Shown: piece after piece, positions 2,687 through 57,485 of the stretch
How positions within the stretch are numbered: the stretch's first letter is position 1
Layout: the number at the start of each line of letters is the position of its first letter
DNA from: Janthinobacterium sp. SUN073
Lineage (GTDB): Bacteria > Pseudomonadota > Gammaproteobacteria > Burkholderiales > Burkholderiaceae_D
DNA length: 64,000 nucleotides
Direction: 5' to 3'
NCBI RefSeq assembly: GCF_030397665.1
Contig: NZ_JAPUBT010000005.1
Span: 310,001-374,000, forward strand
Position numbers and translations under genes: made by a program
The notes under the pieces: generated by a model
Database searches by the model: none
What the model was told of the DNA's origin: nothing
The model's input: only the letters and a program-made list of their open reading frames with translations

Positions 2687-2763
2687 TGGTGCGGCTGGCA
2701 GGAATTGAACCCACGACCCCTTGGTTCGTAGCCAAGTACTCTATCCAGCTGAGCTACAGCCGC
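2687..2763 (-). tRNA. tRNA-Arg(ACG), copy 1
   Basis: 77 nt including an encoded CCA. The acceptor stem is GCGGCTG/CAGCCGC, the anticodon stem-loop is CTTGG-CTACGAA-CCAAG, and the T-arm contains GGTTCAATTCC. Anticodon ACG (wobble A becomes inosine) reads CGU/CGC/CGA. The sequence is identical to the three copies at 5299-5689. A TATAAT-like -10 box sits at 2774-2779 on the same strand. Confidence 0.98.
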
Positions 2764-2773
2764 CTAAGACAAG

Positions 2774-2779
2774 ATTATA
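2774..2779 (-). promoter_or_regulatory. -10 box for tRNA-Arg copy 1
   Basis: The reverse strand reads TATAAT eleven bases upstream of the mature tRNA 5' end. A weak -35 (TTTGCC) lies 17 bp further up. The position fits a short tRNA leader. Confidence 0.6.
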
Positions 2780-2951
2780 GCAGGGCTTTGCAGAATGGCA
2801 AAGGGCGTGGCGGCACTATTTCACAATTGACGGCCTCCCCTATTTTTCACGGGCCGACCCGCTCCGCTCACTTGCATCTTTCATCACATTTATTTTCTGA
2901 CTGCGGCGCAAAACCGACAGGTTTATTTCTTCTTAGTCATTATCAATGCAT

Positions 2952-2978
2952 CCATGAAAAATGAATTGCAATTCATGG
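2952..2978. promoter_or_regulatory. Palindromic site upstream of the lipoprotein gene
   Basis: A perfect 16-bp palindrome (ATGAATTGCAATTCAT, 2961-2976) nested in a CCATGAA...TTCATGG inverted repeat lies about 60 bp before the lipoprotein start in an AT-rich intergenic stretch. Its symmetry and position suggest a protein-binding operator. The regulator is unknown; a Fur-type site is possible but the match is poor. Confidence 0.35.
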
Positions 2979-3034
2979 AAAATTTTGAGAATGTTTACTG
3001 GCAGTAATTCCAAAAAAAATACCAAGGGGATGTC

Positions 3035-5179
3035 ATGAAAAAGAATTTGCACCTATTATTGCCGCTGGCTGCCGCCTGCACCATCACCTTCATGCTGGCC
3101 GCCTGTGGCGGCGGCAGCAGCACCCCCGCCGACCCGGCGCCACCAGTTCCCCCCGTCGTACTGGCAACCACGCTCAGCGGCACGGCAGCCGTCGGCGCGC
3201 CCGTCGCGGGCAGCGTCGTGGCCATCGACAGCAAGGGCAAAGTGTCCGTGGCGGTCAACACCGGCGCCGGCGGAGCCTTTACGGTCGATGTGGCCGGCAT
3301 GACGGCGCCGTTTTTCCTCAGTATCACCGGCACGTCCGGCGGCAAGCAAGTGACGCTCAATTCCATCGCCACCGCGGCGGGGCAAACCGTCAACATCACG
3401 CCGCTGACGGACCTGATCGTCTCCACGGCGTCGGGCCAGCCCGGCGGCACGGCCCTGGCCACCGTCTGCGCACCCGTCGCCAATACGGTCTCGGCCGCCT
3501 GCACCACGGCGCTGGCCACGGCGGCGACCCAGCAACGGCTCGATGCGGCCGTGGCCGCCGTCATCGCCATGATCAAACCCATCAATACCGGCAATGCCAA
3601 TCCGCTGACGGGCGCCTTTGTTGCCAACGGCACGGGCATGGACGCCGTGCTGGACCAGATCCTCGTCGCACCTGCGGAAGCGCAAGGCGCCATGGCGACC
3701 GTCACCCTGATTGCCACCAACAGCGCGCTGGGCAGCGTGACCTTGCCTGCCGCCGCCGGCGGCGCTGCGACGATACCGGCGGCGACACCGCCATCGGATG
3801 CCGACCTGACCAAGGCGAGCGCCGCAGCCAGCGTCTTGCCGGAAATCCGCGCCTGCATGGCCTCGCTCAGCGCGCTGTATCCGAAGACGGACTTCGTCGT
3901 ACCGTCGACGGCGGCAGTGTCGCCGTTTATCGACAGCACCTTCAATCTGGGGGCAGGGGTGGGCCAGGCGGACATCGTGTCGGCCCTGACCAGCACGGAC
4001 CAGGCCGCCCATGCGGGGCTGATGATCGAAGTACTGGGCTTGGCCAGCGTCAACATGCAGCCCTTGAGCACGGATGAAATTGCCACACTGACTTCCTCGT
4101 CCAGCACCTCGACAACGCGCGTCGCGGACTTCATCGGCAATCGCCTTGGCGCCGGGGCGACGGCCATCACCTTTACCGCAGGCAAGCCGAGCAGTGCATG
4201 GGTGCAGTTGCGCATAGGCGGCGACGCGGGCATGCTCAACTGGAAACTGGTCAAGACCAGCGACACCAGTGCCTGCGCCGGCGGCTGGAAACTGGCCGGC
4301 AGCGGCCACCTGGACATGCACATGAATGCGCGCATCCAGCGCAGTGTCGATGGCGCGGGCACGGCCAGCTTTGCGCGCGAATGGGCCGCGCACGTGGAAC
4401 TCGACACCGTGCTGCAGGAAAATCCCGCCATCAACAAGATCGATGTGCGGGGACCGGGCCTGACGACGTTTGGCGACTTCCAACTACCCGGCACGGCCGG
4501 CAGCAAATTGCAGCTGATCCTGCCAGCGACCGGCTACACCCATATGCGGGTGGCCGACAGCAATGGCGCCGCCAGCGCTTTCTACAATAACGCGGAAGCC
4601 ATTCAAAGCTGCCAGGACCTGGCCAGCCTGCCCGCCAACACGCCGGGCCTGGGCGCCGGCACGGCTTGCATCGACGAGACGAAAGTCGCGCCGGGCAAGG
4701 TATATGTCTGGACCCTGAAAACGCCGAATGGCCCTGTCAGCGCCTTCCCGTTCCAGATCAATGCCGTACCGCTGTCAAAAGCCTTTGCCAGGGCCAACCA
4801 GGCCAGCCTGTTTGCCACGCTCACCGGCATCACGCCGGCGAAACTGTCATCCCTCCCCGCCGCCACCCTGCTGGACGGCGTGGTGACCTTCAACTACACG
4901 CAGTCTGCCACCTACGGTTCCAAAATGGATAATTGCGGCCTGTCCCTGTTCAATGGCGCCACGCCGGTGCTGAACGCGGAACAAAATGCAGTTGGACAAG
5001 AAACCTCGTGCACCTTCACGACCTCGGGGCTCAATTCCCTGGCATCGAATGTGCCGGACCAGGCACATTCGGGCGCCTCGCTATTCAAGTTCACGGGACC
5101 CGTGACGAATGGCGGACTGTGGGTGACCACCATCGTCCTGGGCAACCAGGCCTCCTCAGGCCAGCCCTATCCGAATTGA
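3035..5179 (+). CDS. Large lipoprotein of unknown function
   Basis: 714 residues beginning MKKNLHLLLPLAAACTITF, then a lipobox LAAC before a Gly/Ser linker (GGGSS) and a Pro-rich stretch, so it should be a membrane-anchored lipoprotein. Residues ~45-110 (LSGTAAVGAPVAGSVVAIDS, then GAFTVDVAGM) look like a carboxypeptidase-regulatory-like beta-sandwich. The rest is rich in Ala, Thr and Ser and has scattered cysteines but no catalytic motif I recognise. AAGGGGATGTC precedes the ATG. The gene sits between tRNA-Arg copies on the opposite strand and is the only protein gene there. Function unknown. Confidence 0.85.
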   Translation: MKKNLHLLLPLAAACTITFMLAACGGGSSTPADPAPPVPPVVLATTLSGTAAVGAPVAGSVVAIDSKGKVSVAVNTGAGGAFTVDVAGMTAPFFLSITGTSGGKQVTLNSIATAAGQTVNITPLTDLIVSTASGQPGGTALATVCAPVANTVSAACTTALATAATQQRLDAAVAAVIAMIKPINTGNANPLTGAFVANGTGMDAVLDQILVAPAEAQGAMATVTLIATNSALGSVTLPAAAGGAATIPAATPPSDADLTKASAAASVLPEIRACMASLSALYPKTDFVVPSTAAVSPFIDSTFNLGAGVGQADIVSALTSTDQAAHAGLMIEVLGLASVNMQPLSTDEIATLTSSSSTSTTRVADFIGNRLGAGATAITFTAGKPSSAWVQLRIGGDAGMLNWKLVKTSDTSACAGGWKLAGSGHLDMHMNARIQRSVDGAGTASFAREWAAHVELDTVLQENPAINKIDVRGPGLTTFGDFQLPGTAGSKLQLILPATGYTHMRVADSNGAASAFYNNAEAIQSCQDLASLPANTPGLGAGTACIDETKVAPGKVYVWTLKTPNGPVSAFPFQINAVPLSKAFARANQASLFATLTGITPAKLSSLPAATLLDGVVTFNYTQSATYGSKMDNCGLSLFNGATPVLNAEQNAVGQETSCTFTTSGLNSLASNVPDQAHSGASLFKFTGPVTNGGLWVTTIVLGNQASSGQPYPN

Positions 5180-5248
5180 CGCCCCGTTAACGGACTGAAA
5201 CATGCCGCGCTGCTGGCGGCGTGTTTCAAGCAACAGTTTGGCTGGACG

Positions 5249-5284
5249 AAAAAAAACCCGGAAAGCATGCTTTCCGGGTTTTTC
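5249..5284. terminator. Bidirectional terminator between the lipoprotein gene and the tRNA-Arg array
   Basis: The perfect palindrome CCCGGAAAGCATGCTTTCCGGG is flanked by a run of A on the left and T on the right, so it makes a strong hairpin plus U-tract on either strand. It serves the lipoprotein gene on + and the three-tRNA transcript on -. Confidence 0.9.
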
Positions 5285-5298
5285 TTTACTGCTGATAC

Positions 5299-5375
5299 TG
5301 GTGCGGCTGGCAGGAATTGAACCCACGACCCCTTGGTTCGTAGCCAAGTACTCTATCCAGCTGAGCTACAGCCGC
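5299..5375 (-). tRNA. tRNA-Arg(ACG), copy 2
   Basis: 77 nt, identical to the copy at 2687-2763, with encoded CCA and anticodon ACG. It is the last of three tandem copies read from a promoter near 5700. A strong terminator (5249-5284) follows. Confidence 0.98.
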
Positions 5376-5453
5376 AAACTCTGACACACTTCGCCTGACG
5401 GCGCGAAGCTTGAAACTTTCATCAGAATGAAGTGAACTCCACCCTGGTAATAC

Positions 5454-5530
5454 TGGTGCGGCTGGCAGGAATTGAACCCACGACCCCTTGGTTCGTAGCC
5501 AAGTACTCTATCCAGCTGAGCTACAGCCGC
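5454..5530 (-). tRNA. tRNA-Arg(ACG), copy 3
   Basis: 77 nt, identical to the other copies, with encoded CCA. It is 78 nt upstream of copy 2 in the direction of transcription. The spacers on either side are not alike, so only the tRNA itself is conserved. Confidence 0.98.
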
Positions 5531-5612
5531 AAAACTTCTACAACATTCCATGAACAACATGGAGGTGAAACTTGTTACAACAAAACCAGGCAAAGTCTGA
5601 TTTTCAGTATTC

Positions 5613-5689
5613 TGGTGCGGCTGGCAGGAATTGAACCCACGACCCCTTGGTTCGTAGCCAAGTACTCTATCCAGCTGAGCTACAGCCGC
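5613..5689 (-). tRNA. tRNA-Arg(ACG), copy 4
   Basis: 77 nt, identical to the other copies, with encoded CCA. It is the first tRNA of the three-gene transcript, with a TATAAT box just upstream at 5700-5705. Confidence 0.98.
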
Positions 5690-49010: not shown

Positions 49011-51680
49011 TCAGGCCGCGCTGCGCGCCTCAAGCAGCAACTGTCGTATCTCGGGCACGCAGGAGCCGCAATTGCCGCCCGCCTTGACGCAGGCAGTCAC
49101 CTGCGCCGTCGTCGTCAGTTTTTGCTCCTGGATGGCGGCGCAAATGGTGTTGCGCCCGACGCCAAAGCACGAGCACACGGTGGGCCCGGCGTCGACGCCC
49201 TTGCCGATGGGCTGGCCCAGCAGCACGCCGGCGCGGTCCGCCGCCTCCATTTGCGCGTGTGCAAACAGGCCCGCCAGCCAGCTGCGCGACGGCAGGTCGG
49301 GACGCGGCGAGACGTACACGCATTGCGCGATGCGCCCTTCATCCAGGTGCACGGCGCGGTACACGCCGGCGCTGGCGTCGGCATAATCGAGCCAGTCGGC
49401 CTTGTCGTCCGTGACGCCGAGCAGCGCGCGCGCCCAGGCGCCGAGATCCTCGATGCGCTGGCGGCCGGCCAGCTCGTAGCGCAGGAATTGCTCGCCCTGG
49501 ATGCGCGTCCAGTGCGCCACGCCGTCCAGGTTCAAGGGCGTGCGGCTCAGCACAAACGCATGCCAGTGCACGCGGAACTGCTCGATGCGCACGGGCGTAT
49601 GCTTGAATTCAGGCTCGCCCGAGACGGGATCGACGACCGGGTTGACGACGGCGCCCACGCGCGCGTCGGAGGCATTCGCATCGCTCCAGTGGATCGGCAC
49701 GAAGACCTGGCCGCGCGCGATCCCGCCGCCATGCACGACCCGCGCCACCATCGCGCCCCAGGCGCTGGAAATGCGCGCCAGCTCGCCTTCGCGCACGCTG
49801 TACAGCAGCGCATCCTGCGGGTGGAGGTCGATGAAGGCCTCGGCGACGTGACCGGATAATTTCGGCGCCTTGCCCGTGCGCGTCATCGTATGCCACTGGT
49901 CGCGCACCCGGCCCGTGTTGAGGATCAGCGGATACTCTTCGTCGGGCGCATTGCGCGGCGCGCGCGGCGGCGTGGGCACGAAACGCGCGCGCCCGTCCGC
50001 ATGGGCGAAGCGGCCGTCGCCGAACAAGCGCGCCCTGCCCTGCGGCCACTGCTGCGGCGCCAGCGCGTCGTATTGCGCCGCATCCAGCTTGTCCAGGCCC
50101 GCCAGATTGAACAGGCGCGCCTGCTCGCCCACATTGCGGAAGGTGGACAGGCGCGCGTGTTCGTCGAAGATAGCCTGCGGCGAGGTGAAATCGAAGCCCG
50201 CATAGCCCATGCGCGTGGCCACCTCGCACAGCACGTCCCAGTCGGCGCGCGCCTCGCCGGGCGCCGGCAAGAAGGCGCGCTGGCGCGAGATGCGCCGCTC
50301 GGAATTGGTCACCGTACCATCTTTCTCACCCCAACCCAGCGCTGGCAGCAACACGTCGGCATGCGTATTCGTGTCCGATTCGGCGCTGATGTCCGACACC
50401 ACCACCAGTTCGCACTTGGCCAGCGCGCGGCGCACCTGGTCCGCATCCGGCATGCTGACCAGGGGATTGGTGGCGATGATCCACACGGCTTTCACCTTGC
50501 CCGCTTCGATGGCGTGGAACAGTTCCACCGCCTTCAAGCCAGGCTTGCTGGCGATGCGGGGAGCATCCCAGAACGTTTGCACCGTGTCGCGGTGCAGCGG
50601 ATTATCCAGTTCCAGGTGCGCCGCCAGCATATTGGCCAGCCCCCCCACTTCGCGTCCGCCCATGGCGTTCGGCTGGCCCGTCAGCGAAAACGGCCCCATG
50701 CCGGGCTGGCCGATGCGCCCCGTCGCCAGGTGGCAGTTGATGATGCTGTTGACCTTGTCCGTACCGGAGGACGACTGGTTCACGCCCTGCGAAAACGCCG
50801 TGACGACCTTGCGCGTGGCGGCAAACGCCTGGTAAAACGCCAGCAAGGCAAGAGGGTCGACCTTGCAGATTTTCGCTACCTGCAGCGGATCGCTGCAATC
50901 CACGTGCGCGGCCGCCAGCGCCGCATCCAGTCCGGAACTGTGCCGCGTGACGAACGCATCGTCGATCGCGCCTTCCCTCGCCAGATAACACAATAAGCCG
51001 TTGAACAGCCACACGTCGGTGCCCGGCTTCACGGGCAAATGGACATCGGCCAGCTCGCAGGTGGCCGTGCGGCGCGGGTCGATCACCACCAGTTTCATGT
51101 GTGGCCGGCTTTCCTTGATGCGGGCGATGCGCTGAAACAGGATCGGATGGCACCAGGCCGTGTTCGAGCCCACCAGCACCACCATGTCGGCCAGTTCCAG
51201 GTCTTCATAGCAGCCCGGCACGATATCCTCGCCGAACGCGCGCTTGTGTCCCGCCACGGCCGACGACATGCACAGGCGCGAATTGGTGTCGATATTCGCG
51301 CTGCCCACATAGCCCTTCATGAACTTGTTGGCCACATAATAATCTTCCGTCAGCAGCTGGCCCGAGACATACAGGGCCACGGCGTCGGGGCCGTGTGCAT
51401 CGATGATGGCGCGCAAGCCGCCGGCCACTTTATCCAGCGCCACGTCCCATGAAGCCGGCTGCAACGCACCATCGACGCGCACTTGCGGCTGCAGCAAACG
51501 GTTGTCCAGATCCAGGGTGTCGCCCAGCGCCGAGCCTTTCACGCACAGGCGCCCCAGATTGGCGGGGTGCGCGGCATCGCCGGCGATGCGGATGGCGCCG
51601 TCGGGCAGGCGTGTCGCTTCCACGCCGCAGCCGACGCCGCAGTACGGGCAAGTGGTTTTTACGGGCGTGCAGCTTGTCAT
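49011..51680 (-). CDS. nasA: Assimilatory nitrate reductase, catalytic subunit with BFD-like tail
   Basis: 889 residues. The N-terminal 4Fe-4S site is C11-x2-C14-x3-C18 in CPYCGVGCGV with C46 in LCVKG. The molybdopterin regions follow (SANIDTNSRLCMSSAVAGHKR; SGQPNAMGGREVGGLANML-like segment; ending HWSDANASDARVGAVVNP). The last ~60 residues are a BFD-type 2Fe-2S domain (CSCFGVGRNTICAAI, then CVKAGGNCGSCVPEIRQLL). It reduces nitrate to nitrite in the cytoplasm, taking electrons from the FAD protein upstream. Start at 51680 (MTSCTPVK) by family length. Confidence 0.95.
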   Translation of the reverse strand: MTSCTPVKTTCPYCGVGCGVEATRLPDGAIRIAGDAAHPANLGRLCVKGSALGDTLDLDNRLLQPQVRVDGALQPASWDVALDKVAGGLRAIIDAHGPDAVALYVSGQLLTEDYYVANKFMKGYVGSANIDTNSRLCMSSAVAGHKRAFGEDIVPGCYEDLELADMVVLVGSNTAWCHPILFQRIARIKESRPHMKLVVIDPRRTATCELADVHLPVKPGTDVWLFNGLLCYLAREGAIDDAFVTRHSSGLDAALAAAHVDCSDPLQVAKICKVDPLALLAFYQAFAATRKVVTAFSQGVNQSSSGTDKVNSIINCHLATGRIGQPGMGPFSLTGQPNAMGGREVGGLANMLAAHLELDNPLHRDTVQTFWDAPRIASKPGLKAVELFHAIEAGKVKAVWIIATNPLVSMPDADQVRRALAKCELVVVSDISAESDTNTHADVLLPALGWGEKDGTVTNSERRISRQRAFLPAPGEARADWDVLCEVATRMGYAGFDFTSPQAIFDEHARLSTFRNVGEQARLFNLAGLDKLDAAQYDALAPQQWPQGRARLFGDGRFAHADGRARFVPTPPRAPRNAPDEEYPLILNTGRVRDQWHTMTRTGKAPKLSGHVAEAFIDLHPQDALLYSVREGELARISSAWGAMVARVVHGGGIARGQVFVPIHWSDANASDARVGAVVNPVVDPVSGEPEFKHTPVRIEQFRVHWHAFVLSRTPLNLDGVAHWTRIQGEQFLRYELAGRQRIEDLGAWARALLGVTDDKADWLDYADASAGVYRAVHLDEGRIAQCVYVSPRPDLPSRSWLAGLFAHAQMEAADRAGVLLGQPIGKGVDAGPTVCSCFGVGRNTICAAIQEQKLTTTAQVTACVKAGGNCGSCVPEIRQLLLEARSAA

Positions 51681-51702
51681 GGGCGTATCCTGTTGGTCGC
51701 TG

Positions 51703-52929
51703 TCAGGCGGCCTGGCCGCACAGGGCCTGGCCAAACAATAAATGGGAGCGCAGCGCGCTGATGTCGCGGCGCTGCTGGATCAGGTCGAAATACCAGGGAC
51801 CGTCCTGCACCTCGCCATACAGTACGGCGCCCACCAGGCGGCTACCCTGCACCACCAGGCGCTTGTAGACACCGCGGCGCGGATCGCGCAGCACCAGGTC
51901 TTCGCTGCCTTCGCCGCCGATGATGTCGCCGGCCGAATACAGATCGATGCCCGTCACTTTCAATTTGGTGGCGCTGGCCTGCTGCACGTAGCGCCGGTGT
52001 CCCGCGCCGGCCAGGTGCGCGCCGCACACGCGCGCCTGCTCCCAGATGGGCGCGACCAGGCCGAAGGTGGCGCGGCGGTGCTGCACGCATTCGCCCACCG
52101 CGTACACGCGCGGGTCATAGCTTTGCAGGCAGTCATCGACGACGATGGCCCGCTCGCAGTGCAGGCCGGCCGCTTGCGCCAGCGCGATGTTGGGGCGCAC
52201 GCCGGCCGTCATCACCACCAGGTCGGCCGGGATCGACGTACCGTCGGCAAAGCGAACGCCCTGCACCCGGTCGGTGCCAAGAATTTCCGCCGTTTGCGCC
52301 TGCATCAAAAACCGCAGGCCGCGCGCTTCCAGTGCCGTTTTCAGCAGCATCGATGCGGGTGCGTCGAGCTGCTGGTTCATCAGGGCGCCGCTCATGTGCA
52401 CCACCGTCACATCCATGCCCTGGCGCTGCAAGCCGTTGGCCGCTTCCAGCCCCAGCAAGCCGCCACCGATGACCACCGCGTGGCGGTGCGTGCGCGCCGC
52501 CTGCAGCATGGTGTCGACGTCGCTGATGTCGCGAAAACCGATCACGCCGGGCAGCGCGTGGCCCGGCACGGGCACGATGAACGGCGTCGAGCCGGTGGCC
52601 AGCAGCAAGCGGTCGTAGGCTACCGTGACGCCGGACCGCGCCTCCACCTTTCGCGCCTGGCGGTCGATGCGCACCACGGGGTCGCCCGCGTGCAGGGTGA
52701 TGCCGTTTTGCGCATACCAGTGGCGCGTGTGCAGCATGATGTCGTCCACCGTCTTTTCGCCGGCCAGCACGGGAGACAGCAAAATGCGGTTGTAATTGCC
52801 GTGCGGTTCGGCGCCGAAGACGGTGATGTCGTACAGGTCGGGGGCCAGTTTCAGCAACTCCTCGACCGTGCGCATGCCGGCCATGCCGTTGCCGACCACG
52901 ACTAAAGACGGCCGCGCGGCGGTGTTCAC
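51703..52929 (-). CDS. FAD/NAD(P)-dependent oxidoreductase, nitrate reductase electron donor (NirB N-terminal-like)
   Basis: 408 residues. FAD motif LVVVGNGMAGMRTVEELL at the N-terminus, NAD motif VVIGGGLLGLEAANGLQRQG near 145 and the C-terminal reductase domain (YSAGDIIGGEGSEDLVLRD). It resembles the first third of NirB as a separate protein and is typically found next to nasA, to which it should pass NAD(P)H electrons. The start is a GTG at 52929 that overlaps the nirD stop by four bases (GTGA), coupling translation. Confidence 0.9.
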   Translation of the reverse strand: MNTAARPSLVVVGNGMAGMRTVEELLKLAPDLYDITVFGAEPHGNYNRILLSPVLAGEKTVDDIMLHTRHWYAQNGITLHAGDPVVRIDRQARKVEARSGVTVAYDRLLLATGSTPFIVPVPGHALPGVIGFRDISDVDTMLQAARTHRHAVVIGGGLLGLEAANGLQRQGMDVTVVHMSGALMNQQLDAPASMLLKTALEARGLRFLMQAQTAEILGTDRVQGVRFADGTSIPADLVVMTAGVRPNIALAQAAGLHCERAIVVDDCLQSYDPRVYAVGECVQHRRATFGLVAPIWEQARVCGAHLAGAGHRRYVQQASATKLKVTGIDLYSAGDIIGGEGSEDLVLRDPRRGVYKRLVVQGSRLVGAVLYGEVQDGPWYFDLIQQRRDISALRSHLLFGQALCGQAA

Positions 52930-53288
52930 AGCGCCACCCACACCATGCCGCCGAACACGCGTGCCGGCCAGGCGGCGACCGAATGCTCGGGCGCTTCCAG
53001 GCACTCGCCGCTGGCCAGGTCGAAATGCTGCTTGTAGATGGGCGAGGCGACGACGACGCGCTCGCCGATGCTGCCCACCAGGCCCCGCGAGAGCACGGAA
53101 GCGCCCGCGTTCGGGTCGACATTGTCGATGGCGTACACGCGCGGCGCGGCATCGCCGACGCGGAACACGGCCACGTGGCGTCCATTCAGCAGCGCGCACA
53201 CGCCCGTGTCGGGCACGATGTCAGTCAGGGGGCAGACGGCCATCCAGTTGTCGGCGGTGGCGCCGGTCAGTTCATTCATCGCATTCAT
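52926..53288 (-). CDS. nirD: Nitrite reductase small subunit
   Basis: 120 residues with a Rieske-like fold (VCPLTDIVPDTGVCALLNGRHVAVFRV, VVASPIYKQHFDLASGECLE) but without the Cys/His pairs that bind the cluster, which is normal for NirD. It partners NirB. Start ATG at 53288 is close to the nirB stop at 53292. Confidence 0.95.
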   Translation of the reverse strand: MNAMNELTGATADNWMAVCPLTDIVPDTGVCALLNGRHVAVFRVGDAAPRVYAIDNVDPNAGASVLSRGLVGSIGERVVVASPIYKQHFDLASGECLEAPEHSVAAWPARVFGGMVWVAL

Positions 53289-53291
53289 GGC

Positions 53292-55844
53292 TCAAGCCTC
53301 CACGGCAAGGATGGGGATCACGGTGCTGCGGCGCTCGTCAAGCGTGGCGGGCCGGATCTGGCCCCGCTCTTCCACGAATACCACATTTTCATCGTTTTTC
53401 TCGCTGTTGACGAAATGGCGGAAACGCTGGCGCACGGCGGGGTTGGAGATGGCTTCCTTCCACTCGCAGGCATAGGTGTCGACCACGTGCTGCATGTCCG
53501 CTTCCAGCTCGTGGGCGATGCCCAGGCTGTCGTCGATGATGACGCGCTTGAGGTAATCGAGGCCCCCTTCCAGATTGTCGCGCCACACGCTGGTGCGCTG
53601 CAGGCGGTCGGCCGTGCGCACGTAAAACATCAGGAAGCGGTCGACATAGCGCACCAGGGTGGCTTCATCGAGATCCGATGCAATCAGTTCCGCATGGCGC
53701 GGCTTCATGCCGCCATTGCCGCATACGTACAGATTCCAGCCTTTTTCCGTGGCGATCAGGCCGATATCCTTGCCCTGCGCCTCGGCGCACTCGCGCGTGC
53801 AGCCGGACACGCCGAACTTGATCTTGTGCGGCGTGCGCAAGCCCTTGTAGCGGTTTTCCAGCTGGATCGCAAAACCCACGCTGTCGGCCACGCCGTAGCG
53901 GCACCAGGTGGAGCCCACGCAGGATTTCACCGTGCGCAAGGATTTGCCGTAGGCGTGGCCCGATTCGAAGCCGGCCGCGATCAGTTCTTCCCAGATGGCC
54001 GGCAACTGGTCGACGCGCGCGCCGAACAGGTCGACCCGCTGGCCGCCCGTGATCTTGGTGTACAGGCCGTATTTTTTCGCCACCATGCCTACGGCGATCA
54101 AGCCGTCGGCCGTCACCTCGCCGCCCGGCATGCGTGGCACGACGGAGTAGGTGCCATCCTTCTGGATATTGCCGAGAAAATAATCGTTGCTGTCCTGCAG
54201 GCTGGCATGCACGGGCGACAGGACAAAATCGTTCCAGCACGAGGCCAGGATATTTGCCGCCACGGGCTTGCACACGTCGCAACCAAGACCCTGGCCATGC
54301 GCGGACAGCAGCGCGCCGAAGCTGCGGATCTTGCCAACGCGGACCAGGTGGTGCAATTCCTGGCGCGAGTACGCAAAATGCTCGCACACGTGGTTATTGA
54401 CGGCCAGGCCCTGCTTCTGCATTTCCGCCTTCATGATCTGCGTCACCAGCGGCACGCAGCCGCCGCAGGCCGTGCCGGCTTTCGTGCAGGATTTTAATGC
54501 GCCGATGGTGGTGGCGCCATCGGCCACGGCCGCGCACAGCGCGCCTTTCGACACGTCGTTACACGAGCAGATTTGCGCCGACTCGGGCAAGGCATCCACG
54601 CCCAGGCCGACTTTTTGCTGGCCGTCGGCCTGCGGCAGGATCAGGAATTCGGGGGATGCCGGCAGCTCGATTTTATTCAACATCATTTGCAAGAGCGTGC
54701 CGTATTCGCTGGCGTCGCCCACCATCACGCCGCCCAGCAGATATTTGCCGCAATCGGAGACGACGATCTTCTTGTAGATCTGCTTGCGCTCGTCCATGAA
54801 CTGGTAGGAGCGGCTGCCCGGCGCATTGCCGTGCGGGTCGCCCAGGCTGGCCACGTCCACGCCCATCAGTTTAAGCTTGGTGCTCATGTCGGCGCCCTTG
54901 AACGACGCTTCGCCCTCCTCTTCCAGCACATGGCGCGCCACGATGCGCGCCATTTCATAGCCAGGCGCCACCAGGCCGAACACCAGGCCGCCCCACAGCG
55001 CGCATTCGCCGATCGCATAAATATCGGGGTCGGAAGTGACGCAGCGGTCATCGATGGCGATACCGCCGCGCGGACCCACGTCCAGGCCGCAAGCGCGCGC
55101 CAGTTCGTCGCGCGGACGGATGCCGGCCGAGAAGACGATCATGTCCGCTTCCAGGTGGCTGCCGTCGGCGAACTGCATGCGGTGCGTGGCCGCTACACCG
55201 TCGACGATGGCCAGCGTGTTCTTTTGCGTGTGCACGGTCACGCCCAGTTCCTCGATCTTGCGCCGCAGGACGCGCGCGCCGCCTTCATCGACCTGCACGG
55301 CCATCAGGCGCGGGGCGAATTCCACCACATGGGTGTCGAGCTTCAAATCGCGCAAGGCCTTCGCGCATTCGAGGCCCAACAAGCCGCCGCCGATCACCAC
55401 CCCCGTCTTTGATTTTCCGCCCCAGGCCAGCATGGCTTCCAGGTCTTCGATGGTGCGGTAGACGAAGCAGCCATCGCGCTCCTTGCCCGGCAGCGGCGGC
55501 ACGAACGGCGTCGAGCCCGTGGCGAACACCAGCTTGTCGTAGGCTAGCACTTCGCCCGTGCTGGCCGTGACGGTTTTCGCCACGCGGTCGATGGACACGG
55601 CCCGCGCATTCAGTTTCAGCACGACGTTGCCCTTGTCGAAGAAGCCGGGCGCCACCAGGGACAGGTCCTCGGCCGATTTGCCGTTGAAAAATTCGGACAG
55701 GTGCACCCTGTCATAGGCGGGGCGCGGCTCTTCGCACAAGACCGTCACGGACAAGTGCGGCGCGTTTTCCAGCGCCAGGCGTTCGAGGAATTTGTGCCCG
55801 ACCATGCCATGGCCGAGGACGACGATCTTCAGGGGGTGGTTCAT
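53292..55844 (-). CDS. nirB: NAD(P)H nitrite reductase large subunit
   Basis: 850 residues. Order: FAD motif VLGHGMVGHKFLERL, NAD motif VVIGGGLLGLECAKALRDL, a BFD 2Fe-2S domain around 425-480 (CSCNDVSKGALCAAV ... CGGCVPLVTQ), the ferredoxin-like nitrite/sulfite reductase half-domain, and the siroheme/4Fe-4S domain with CVGSTWC and GCTRECAEAQ in the CX5C...CX3C pattern. It reduces nitrite to ammonium in the cytoplasm. Second gene of the nitrate operon, 10 bp after narK. Confidence 0.97.
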   Translation of the reverse strand: MNHPLKIVVLGHGMVGHKFLERLALENAPHLSVTVLCEEPRPAYDRVHLSEFFNGKSAEDLSLVAPGFFDKGNVVLKLNARAVSIDRVAKTVTASTGEVLAYDKLVFATGSTPFVPPLPGKERDGCFVYRTIEDLEAMLAWGGKSKTGVVIGGGLLGLECAKALRDLKLDTHVVEFAPRLMAVQVDEGGARVLRRKIEELGVTVHTQKNTLAIVDGVAATHRMQFADGSHLEADMIVFSAGIRPRDELARACGLDVGPRGGIAIDDRCVTSDPDIYAIGECALWGGLVFGLVAPGYEMARIVARHVLEEEGEASFKGADMSTKLKLMGVDVASLGDPHGNAPGSRSYQFMDERKQIYKKIVVSDCGKYLLGGVMVGDASEYGTLLQMMLNKIELPASPEFLILPQADGQQKVGLGVDALPESAQICSCNDVSKGALCAAVADGATTIGALKSCTKAGTACGGCVPLVTQIMKAEMQKQGLAVNNHVCEHFAYSRQELHHLVRVGKIRSFGALLSAHGQGLGCDVCKPVAANILASCWNDFVLSPVHASLQDSNDYFLGNIQKDGTYSVVPRMPGGEVTADGLIAVGMVAKKYGLYTKITGGQRVDLFGARVDQLPAIWEELIAAGFESGHAYGKSLRTVKSCVGSTWCRYGVADSVGFAIQLENRYKGLRTPHKIKFGVSGCTRECAEAQGKDIGLIATEKGWNLYVCGNGGMKPRHAELIASDLDEATLVRYVDRFLMFYVRTADRLQRTSVWRDNLEGGLDYLKRVIIDDSLGIAHELEADMQHVVDTYACEWKEAISNPAVRQRFRHFVNSEKNDENVVFVEERGQIRPATLDERRSTVIPILAVEA

Positions 55845-55854
55845 TGCTGTCTCC

Positions 55855-57150
55855 TCAGGCCGCAGCCATGTTCGGTTCGGCCGCCAGCCCCGTAAAACGG
55901 GCGGCGATGGCGCACAGGGCCGAGACGACCACCAGTGCGCTGAGGATGATCAGGGTCTGGCGGATGTCGCCCGTGCCCTTCATCAGGAAACCGGCCGCCA
56001 CGGCGCCCACGTTGCCGCCGGCGCCGATGATGCCGGCCACGCCACCGAGCGCCTTGCTGTCGATGAAGGGCACCAGCGCATACGTGGCGCCGCAAGCCAT
56101 GTGGGTGAACAGGCCGAAGACCAGCATGGCGATGACGGCGTACGTGACGCTGTCGACTTTGGCAAACCACAGCAAGCCCACGCCTTCGCCTATCATCAGC
56201 ATGAACAGCAGGGTCACGCGGCTGTTCAGATTGCCGCGCAGGGCCAATTTATCCGACATCCAGCCACCGAGGGCGCGGGCAAACAGGGCCAGCAAGCCGA
56301 AGCTGCCGGCTGCCAGGCCCGCCGATTTCAGCGACAGGCCGAAATGGTCGACGTAATACACGGCGGCGATGTTGTGGATGAAAATCTCGATGCCGAAGCA
56401 GGCGCCGTAGGTGACGAACAGCAGCCACACGCGATAGTTGGAACTGGCTGCCTTGAAGCTGGCCCAGCCACCCTTTTTTCCTCCTTCGATGGCCACGCCG
56501 GCGGCGCGCAAGTCCGAGTAATTACCTTCAGGGCAATCCTGCGTATAGCGCCAGTACAGCACTGCCATCACCAGCATCAGCACGCCCGGCACCAGCAGGG
56601 CGATGCGCCAGCCCAGCGATTCGGACACGCCCAGCATCAGCACGGCACCGAGCAGCAGCGGCATCAGCGCCTGCGCCGCGCCGCCGCCCGCATTGCCCCA
56701 GCCGGCGGCGGCCGCATTCGCCGTGCCGACGACGCGGGGCGCGAACATCACCGAGGTGTGATATTGCGTGATGACAAAGCTGGCACCGACGGCGCCGATG
56801 CCCAGGCGGAAGAACAGAAAGCTTTCATAGCTTTGCGAGGCAGCCACGCCCAGCACGGGAATGGCGCCCAGCAGCAGCAAGCCCGTGTACGTCTTGCGGG
56901 GGCCGTAGCGGTCGCACAAGGGTCCGACGATCAGGCGCACGAGGATGGTGATGGCGACGGCCGCGATATTGATATTCGCCACTTGCGCCAGGGAAAGGCC
57001 GAACTCGCCCTTGATGACGGGCATCAGCGGCGCGCAGGCGAACCAGGCGAAGAAACACACGAAAAATGCCATCCACGTCAGGTGGAATGCCCGCATGGGC
57101 GGCGTGGCGAGGGAGAAGAGCGCGATGCGCGTTGCTTTTTGGCTGGCCAT
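55855..57150 (-). CDS. narK: Nitrate/nitrite MFS transporter
   Basis: 431 residues, about twelve helices of the NNP family. The family signatures are seen: GPLCDRYGPRKTYTG, AGWGNAGGGAAQALMPLL and, in the second half, AGGNVGAVAAGFLMKG. It imports nitrate and/or exports nitrite. First gene of the operon. Its ATG at 57150 is about 157 nt after the predicted start of transcription, and the leader carries hairpins and a terminator. Confidence 0.95.
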   Translation of the reverse strand: MASQKATRIALFSLATPPMRAFHLTWMAFFVCFFAWFACAPLMPVIKGEFGLSLAQVANINIAAVAITILVRLIVGPLCDRYGPRKTYTGLLLLGAIPVLGVAASQSYESFLFFRLGIGAVGASFVITQYHTSVMFAPRVVGTANAAAAGWGNAGGGAAQALMPLLLGAVLMLGVSESLGWRIALLVPGVLMLVMAVLYWRYTQDCPEGNYSDLRAAGVAIEGGKKGGWASFKAASSNYRVWLLFVTYGACFGIEIFIHNIAAVYYVDHFGLSLKSAGLAAGSFGLLALFARALGGWMSDKLALRGNLNSRVTLLFMLMIGEGVGLLWFAKVDSVTYAVIAMLVFGLFTHMACGATYALVPFIDSKALGGVAGIIGAGGNVGAVAAGFLMKGTGDIRQTLIILSALVVVSALCAIAARFTGLAAEPNMAAA

Positions 57151-57188: not shown

Positions 57189-57246
57189 AAACAAAAACGG
57201 CGCCCGCCCCCGCCGATGAAAAAAATCAGCCAGAGCGGACGCCGTT
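57189..57246 (-). terminator. Leader terminator (attenuator) of the nitrate-assimilation operon
   Basis: Reverse strand: AACGGCGTCCGC pairs with GCGGGCGCCGTT (one mismatch in 12) around a long loop, then TTTTTGTTT. It lies between the sigma-54 promoter and narK, so by default it should stop transcription. Its 5' arm is the loop and 3' arm of the third AACG hairpin, so the two structures exclude each other. Confidence 0.85.
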
Positions 57247-57304
57247 GTCCAGGTGGTCCGTCGTTGGACCGTTGTGCGTTTATTCAGGGGATCGCCGTTG
57301 ATCC
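57237..57304 (-). ncRNA. ANTAR-type leader RNA: three AACG hexaloop hairpins upstream of the attenuator
   Basis: Reverse strand order: GGATC-AACGGC-GATCC (57304-57289), GGTCC-AACGAC-GGACC (57270-57255), GGAC-AACGGC-GTCC (57250-57237). Each loop is six nt with A first and G fourth, the signature bound by ANTAR antiterminators such as NasR of Klebsiella. The third hairpin shares bases with the terminator 5' arm. Second and third are four nt apart, the paired arrangement described for ANTAR targets. Binding in response to nitrate would let polymerase read into narK-nirBD-nasA. Confidence 0.85.
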
Positions 57305-57317
57305 GTATCTGTTGTGT

Positions 57318-57333
57318 AGCAAGCGCCGTGCCA
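57318..57333 (-). promoter_or_regulatory. Sigma-54 (RpoN) promoter of the nitrate-assimilation operon
   Basis: Reverse strand TGGCAC-GGCGC-TTGCT matches the RpoN consensus at the key bases, with GG (57332-57331) and GC (57320-57319) exactly 10 bp apart. Transcription should start near 57307. NtrC is the usual activator in this setting; a GCACC-TGGC-GGTGC dyad at 57386-57399 is a possible but off-spacing NtrC site. Confidence 0.88.
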
Positions 57334-57485
57334 GCTTTCCCAGGGGCGCGCGGCACCATGCGCACCGGCTTTGCGCCAGATCATGGCACCTGGCGGTGCA
57401 GGCACGCCTCTTCTTGGTGCGAAAAGGAACTCAAACGTGGCAATGTTTGTCTAATTACCATGAAGCTCATGAAGCGGAGGCCGGC

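Follow-up and report, generated by a model that had tools for sequence, protein, structure and literature searches.

Genes and leader at the narK locus

We analyzed a window of 64,000 nucleotides from Janthinobacterium sp. SUN073 (contig NZ_JAPUBT010000005.1, positions 310,001 to 374,000). Its minus strand carries a set of nitrate and nitrite genes, given here from narK onward with their protein domains:

55855..57150, minus strand, open reading frame for a narK-type nitrate/nitrite MFS transporter (PF07690), named narK by context
53292..55844, minus strand, nirB, nitrite reductase large subunit (PF07992, PF04324, PF03460, PF01077)
52926..53288, minus strand, nirD, nitrite reductase small subunit (PF13806 Rieske_2)
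51703..53199, minus strand, FAD oxidoreductase of the nas operon (PF07992, PF18267), reading frame as listed, overlapping nirD, start provisional
49011..51734, minus strand, nasA, assimilatory nitrate reductase (PF00384, PF01568, PF04879, PF04324), reading frame as listed, start provisional

Between 57333 and 57150, the minus strand reads in order as a sigma-54 promoter, three hairpins with 6-nt loops (H1 to H3), a terminator, and narK, with an NtrC-like inverted repeat further upstream:

57385..57400, minus strand, NtrC-like inverted repeat TGCACC-N4-GGTGCC, separated by about 51 bases from the promoter element, score 11/12
57319..57333, minus strand, sigma-54 (-24/-12) promoter TGGCAC-N5-TTGC, read in the sequence
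57289..57304, minus strand, H1, 5'-terminal hexaloop hairpin GGATC-AACGGC-GATCC
57255..57270, minus strand, H2, hexaloop hairpin GGTCC-AACGAC-GGACC
57237..57250, minus strand, H3, putative antiterminator hexaloop hairpin GGAC-AACGGC-GTCC, overlapping the terminator arm
57197..57245, minus strand, intrinsic terminator stem in the minimum free energy (MFE) structure, its 5' arm starting in the H3 loop
57193..57197, minus strand, terminator T tract, read in the sequence

A first-pass annotation of this DNA had described an RpoN promoter with GG-N10-GC spacing. That reading stands: the GG lies at 57332-57331 and the GC at 57320-57319, so the spacing is exact, and the genome encodes RpoN (domain PF00309). 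Promoters of this type in NasT systems are sigma-54 dependent. We scored promoters and upstream repeats against what we take to be the sigma-54 and NtrC site consensus sequences. The promoter spacing predicts a transcript start (+1) at about 57307, with three bases between it and H1. The loops of H1, H2, and H3 are AACGGC, AACGAC, and AACGGC; each has A at loop position 1 (A1), G at position 4 (G4), and a C:G closing pair.

RNAfold predicted that the transcript forms H1 and H2 followed by a long terminator stem (-54.6 kcal/mol). The segment from H3 to the terminator adopted the terminator fold at -36.7 kcal/mol, compared to -5.5 kcal/mol for H3 by itself. The terminator arms span 57245-57225 and 57217-57197 and are followed by the T tract. 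Because H3 contributes its own loop and 3' arm to the 5' arm of the terminator, the two structures are mutually exclusive, as in known ANTAR attenuators.

Titles by Romeo (2012) and Wang (2012) reportedly name antitermination for leaders regulated by NasS-NasT. The nirB and nasA leaders of this system in Pseudomonas, Azotobacter, and Paracoccus involve the same kind of reader and genes as the window leader, and in the Paracoccus nasA leader two hairpins, HI and HII, were mutated (PMC5424462). The dual-hexaloop RNAs of eut, Klebsiella oxytoca nasF, and amiE share with the window leader tandem A1/G4 hexaloops, the last of which overlaps a terminator, and an ANTAR reader. However, they have two hexaloops, whereas the window leader has three, with the first two wider apart. 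In Ramesh 2012 (PMC3369931) and an actinobacterial survey (PMC8164766), the ANTAR target is a dual motif, and the NasR target is given in the same way in PMC7496416. Walshe 2022 reports that EutX has an additional hexaloop on its own and now sets the minimum ANTAR target at one hexaloop. The window leader is not an exact pair; it does contain at least two hexaloops. Among titles and the opening parts of abstracts retrieved for a third hairpin, narK, or P11, we found no description of triple ANTAR leaders; Romeo 2012, Wang 2012, or Weinberg 2017 may hold one.

Conservation of the three hairpins in the family

We collected narK leaders from the family of the source genome. NarK protein matches at E 1e-100 were present in 142/294 family genomes; within the genus, 40/40 genomes had a match at E 0.001, those in G244 and G305 being distant homologues only. 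Leaders were taken from 36/40 genus genomes and 104/116 other family genomes (n = 140), leaving out 4 genus and 12 non-genus genomes. Because these leaders were located through the NarK protein, the set is free of selection for H1 or H2.

A sigma-54 promoter scoring at least 17/21, together with a leader, was present upstream of 138/140 narK orthologues. Three hexaloops were found in 130 leaders and two in 8, while the remaining 2 genomes, both from one genus (g8), had no leader; their NasT matches were weak, at about 1e-25 to 1e-28. Five of the eight two-hexaloop leaders lack H1, all from a single genus (g40); L149 has G for A at loop position 1, and L065 and L160, which have a damaged H3 3' arm, were counted as two-hexaloop. 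The terminator overlap with H3, which had been read in the window at first pass, is confirmed there and recurs in 137/138 leaders, scored as at least 8 pairs, with one mismatch allowed, that join the H3 loop and 3' arm to a terminator 3' arm adjoining a T tract. The sole leader without a good terminator is L065. The NtrC-like repeat is enriched, not universal: it scored at least 10 in 46/138 leaders, compared to about 3.3 expected from mononucleotide shuffles.

The hexaloops themselves are strongly constrained. H1 has A1 and G4 in 132/138 leaders and H2 in 138/138. Among distinct H1 sequences, A1 is found in 77/78, and G4 and the C:G closing pair in 78/78; all 83 distinct H2 sequences have A1 and G4, with a closing pair of C:G in 56 and U:G in 27. 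H1 and H2 vary at loop positions 3, 5, and 6, and across the 63 distinct H3 sequences positions 1, 2, 4, 5, and 6 are invariant. Loop starts are 19-27 nt apart between H2 and H3 and 27-54 nt apart between H1 and H2. At least two non-overlapping hexaloops lie upstream of H3 in 121/138 leaders, compared to a mean of 0.04 and a maximum of 2 in 200 rounds of dinucleotide shuffling (hexaloops defined by A1, G4, and at least 4 contiguous pairs), which rules out a chance origin of the hairpins.

In 38 diverse leaders, 95.0% of alignment cells kept the pairing, compared to 22.0-49.8% for slid versions of the structure. Double changes occurred in 44 cells, against a shuffled mean of 13.9 (0/500 shuffles as high). 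By the weakest covariation measure, 7 pairs had changes on both sides, against a shuffled mean of 4.8 (8/500 shuffles as high). Both-sided changes affected 2/5 pairs of H1, in which 98.9% of cells are paired, and 5/8 pairs of H2 (90.8%). The three ANTAR-type hexaloops of the first-pass annotation are thus both conserved and covarying, and the alignment of narK leaders that it proposed as a check shows covarying stems, invariant G4, and A1 invariant but for one H1 sequence. Its view that a third hairpin in line is unusual does not hold, since most leaders of the family have it and it also appears elsewhere, both in further families and in Pseudomonas. Pairing between arms of H1 and H2, which we considered as a conserved alternative, fails across genera when judged by eye on the leader alignment rows.

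The same changes bear on whether H1 might instead act in the DNA, as an operator across the start site. In favor of this, its position is fixed just past +1 in the family and its stem sequence is strongly conserved, but the changes that do occur obey RNA rules, with G:U pairs (9/38 at one pair) and double changes, and H1 in Pseudomonas sits elsewhere with another stem sequence. The G:U and compensatory changes disfavor an operator, and we regard this as the least probable of the readings discussed here.

Three-hexaloop leaders beyond the family

We searched more widely with R1, a three-hairpin covariance model, at a cutoff of E ≤0.01. It matched in 85/399 order genomes, 8 of them from the source genome's own family, and in 40/369 class genomes, including the source genome and one of the same order. 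After 7/78 order loci, one own-family locus, and 15/29 class loci were dropped for their promoter score or a missing H3, at least three hexaloops were found in 16/70 kept non-family order leaders (11/23 families) and 3/14 kept class leaders; these counts are enriched because the loci were found with a three-hairpin model. The count followed a strict rule (hexaloops ahead of H3 with A1, G4, and 5 or more contiguous pairs). Five listed order places (two from contigs or genomes already sampled, or else late rows) and 14 class places were left out, and L206 was replaced by L265. In these cross-class counts, A1 and G4 are constant by construction, as they were needed for detection, whereas the closing pair and stem changes are free of that effect, as is the family set, in which an absent loop would have lowered the count. 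L235, L319, and L329 may have four hexaloops, two of which overlap in L319 and L329.

Many other order and class leaders have two hexaloops, some of them with a non-hexaloop middle hairpin in the MFE structure. This variation in hexaloop number among relatives, and some leaders of three families (f31, f43, and f50) whose MFE structure has a 5' hexaloop and H3 around a non-hexaloop middle hairpin, would suit a reading in which H1-H3 or H1-H2 form alternative two-hairpin units, with the middle hairpin as spacer or backup and just two loops in use at any time. Against it, H2 keeps A1 and G4 in every family leader and its spacing to H3 is classically short, and we judge alternative units unlikely.

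A pattern of the promoter and H3, blind to H1 and H2, returned at least 120 stretches. By title, nearly all matches listed were from Pseudomonas, Stutzerimonas, and Azotobacter, with three from Thioalkalivibrio and a few from metagenome-assembled genomes. Among the matches listed, H3 was preceded by two hexaloops that do not overlap in 75/120 when stems of 4 or more pairs were accepted (shuffles: mean 0.05, maximum 1) and in 58/120 when 5 or more pairs were required. C:G closes the first hexaloop in 75/75 of the two-hexaloop leaders among these matches. Pooled over families, C:G closes H1 in 103/106 distinct sequences; part of this set was found with a model of C:G-closed stems, whereas the Pseudomonas-pattern set was not. 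The closing pair was not a search criterion, and its conservation therefore speaks for H1 as a genuine ANTAR site.

Another reading is that H1 is chiefly a protective or insulating stem at the 5' terminus, its hexaloop a bonus or remnant, with H2 and H3 doing all of the antitermination. The first stem begins at predicted +2 to +8 in 132/133 H1-bearing family leaders, two leaders of another family (f27; L249 and L262) carry a 4-base loop at the H1 position, and a stem-only role also fits the leaders that the Rfam narK model found in one genus (g26), 17/17 of which keep a 5' stem, mostly GCGCA/TGCGC, with a non-hexaloop loop in H1's place (L006, L008-L010, L012-L019, L022, L023, L026, L028, and L031). 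However, in narK leaders H1 keeps A1, G4, and the C:G closing pair no less strictly than H2 and H3 do, and among the matches listed the Pseudomonas-pattern H1, with its different stem sequence, starts at +12 to +25, off the end of the transcript. We consider a mainly protective stem possible but doubtful, and prefer an ANTAR-binding H1.

Three of the Pseudomonas-pattern loci were scanned, and they proved to be Rfam P11 (RF00625), at 121.9 to 134.5 bits (L342 4281-4415, L306 6298-6434, and L331 296-432). P11 shares with the window leader the sigma-54-like promoter columns, two hairpins, and a third element that holds the 5' arm of the terminator; its hairpins have AACGau and AuaGAA loops, and its terminator starts inside a GGAC-AAAGGC-GUCC element. 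In contrast to the window leader, its stem and loop sequences are different, its model draws no third hairpin, and its description line is without ANTAR. The P11 model gave the window leader 21.6 bits against a gathering threshold of 70, and a scan of the window at gathering returned no match. The Rfam narK RNA (RF03032) likewise shares the sigma-54-like promoter columns, a hexaloop hairpin, and the nitrate-gene context, but it has two hexaloops, the second unpaired in the model, compared to three in the window leader. Its model gave the window leader 23.2 bits against a gathering threshold of 43.2, had no match in the window at gathering, and found none in the genome at E 0.001; as a detector, it misses the window leader. 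A P11 leader and a narK RNA with two hexaloops occur together in Pseudomonas mendocina (L342), which indicates that both designs are usable in one genome.

Judged by sequence, P11, although listed as an sRNA gene, is the same layout as the window leader, and the three-hexaloop leader is real and widespread, a variant form of the "dual hexaloop" ANTAR target rather than a local oddity. P11 could accordingly be re-described as an ANTAR attenuator, and the poor scores of such leaders under two-hairpin models would be explained.

ANTAR readers and a proposed role for H1

A search of the genome for NasR or NasT had been suggested with the first reading of the leader, and NasT is present along with a NasS-like protein. 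The genome has two ANTAR genes, which encode a NasT-like protein of 217 residues (ANTAR domain PF03861, E 5.1e-20) and a REC-ANTAR protein. The NasS-like protein (PF13379), of NasS or NrtA type, is encoded on the contig that carries nasT, at a distance of 4.2 kb. Genes named by eye as FecR-like and TonB-receptor genes lie between the two (L172 8551-12415, G000 contig 29), an arrangement that looks like a single module interrupted by an insertion. The second REC-ANTAR gene (L002 1438-2070, minus strand) sits between alcohol dehydrogenase-like and thiE-like genes, also named by eye. R1 returned no significant second leader in the genome (window leader 1.3e-13, next match 0.76), and two-hairpin leaders could escape this model.

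Across the family, NasT-like proteins (E ≤1e-20) occur in 204/294 genomes. A NasT match is present in 130/142 narK genomes, and each of the other 12, all from genus g26, encodes another ANTAR protein, so that an ANTAR gene tracks the leader across narK genomes. In 11 of these 12 genomes, the open frames are 421-470 residues long. Ten of the proteins were scanned for domains, without the frames of L434 and L438; nine were NIT-ANTAR proteins, which is the NasR architecture, and one, in G258, was of AmiR type. G258 has an intact leader, yet the AmiR-type protein is the only ANTAR protein found there. The genomes with NIT-ANTAR proteins (L428-L433 and L435-L437) mostly have three hexaloops where the narK leader was fetched. 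NIT-ANTAR readers beside kept leaders suggest that the RNA was retained and that the reader seems to have changed in its sensor half.

The second REC-ANTAR gene of the source genome, and the differences among H1, H2, and H3 in the pairs below the loop, raise the question of whether a second ANTAR protein reads H1, such that the leader integrates two signals. Of 12 tested relatives, however, 10 have a single ANTAR match, and 5/6 of the leaders fetched from these keep three intact loops, which indicates that one ANTAR gene suffices. Weakened by these single-ANTAR genomes, a scheme with two different readers seems very unlikely.

We favor, with a probability of roughly 0.6, antitermination by a NasT-type ANTAR protein that docks on three hexaloops of the leader, with H1 as an added early recruitment site. 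RNA polymerase with sigma-54 would start near 57307. Without nitrate, NasS would hold NasT, H3 would lose its loop and 3' arm to the terminator, and transcription would stop before narK. With nitrate or nitrite, freed NasT would bind the hexaloops as they emerge, H1 first, then H2, then H3; with H3 held, the terminator could not form, and narK-nirBD-nasA would be transcribed. H2 and H3 would constitute the classic pair, with H2 as the transfer site, and H1 would load the protein sooner or raise its local concentration. We infer NasT binding, its order, the nitrate response, and the role of H1. The most likely division of labor is early recruitment by H1, classic recruitment by H2, and antitermination by H3. 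As the first-pass annotation proposed, expression of the operon may require low nitrogen as well as nitrate or nitrite, and the third hairpin might play a part in graded read-through.

Published work on other ANTAR proteins offers points of comparison. In Klebsiella, nitrate assimilation is under joint control of NtrC and the ANTAR protein NasR (PMC5424462). The NasR SELEX consensus combines A1 and G4 with closure by C:G, and NasR binds a hairpin pair with an affinity of about 1 uM and a single hairpin with about 12 uM (PMC7496416). For EutV, binding to a single hexaloop followed by successive transfer from P1 to P2 was proposed, and a linker longer by 20 nt abolished antitermination (PMC8934654). 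Set against this linker result, the 27-54 nt between H1 and H2 count against recruitment through H1, as do leaders that manage without it: the five in genus g40 and the two-hexaloop leaders that G201, G190, and G290 have before nrtA/nasS-like genes (named by eye) alongside their three-hexaloop narK leaders.

A bolder and tentative possibility, to which we give little weight, is that ANTAR targets are arrays rather than pairs and that a common gammaproteobacterial nitrate leader with at least three hexaloops engages, as one unit, an oligomer of NasT. In Paracoccus, free NasT is reported to form an oligomer of about 130 kDa, broadly compatible with a hexamer (PMC3795266). If arrays were the rule, three dimers on three hexaloops would match a hexamer, and how sensitive or steep the nitrate switch is would depend on loop number. 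Models of ANTAR action began with simultaneous binding of two hexaloops and have since shifted to a single dimer passed from P1 to P2 (PMC8934654). The conserved third loop, the relatives lacking H1, and the apparent NasT-to-NasR swaps with three loops kept offer direct tests between these models.

Elsewhere in the window, 2690-5689 contains four tRNA genes that score identically; three of these lie inside 400 bases.
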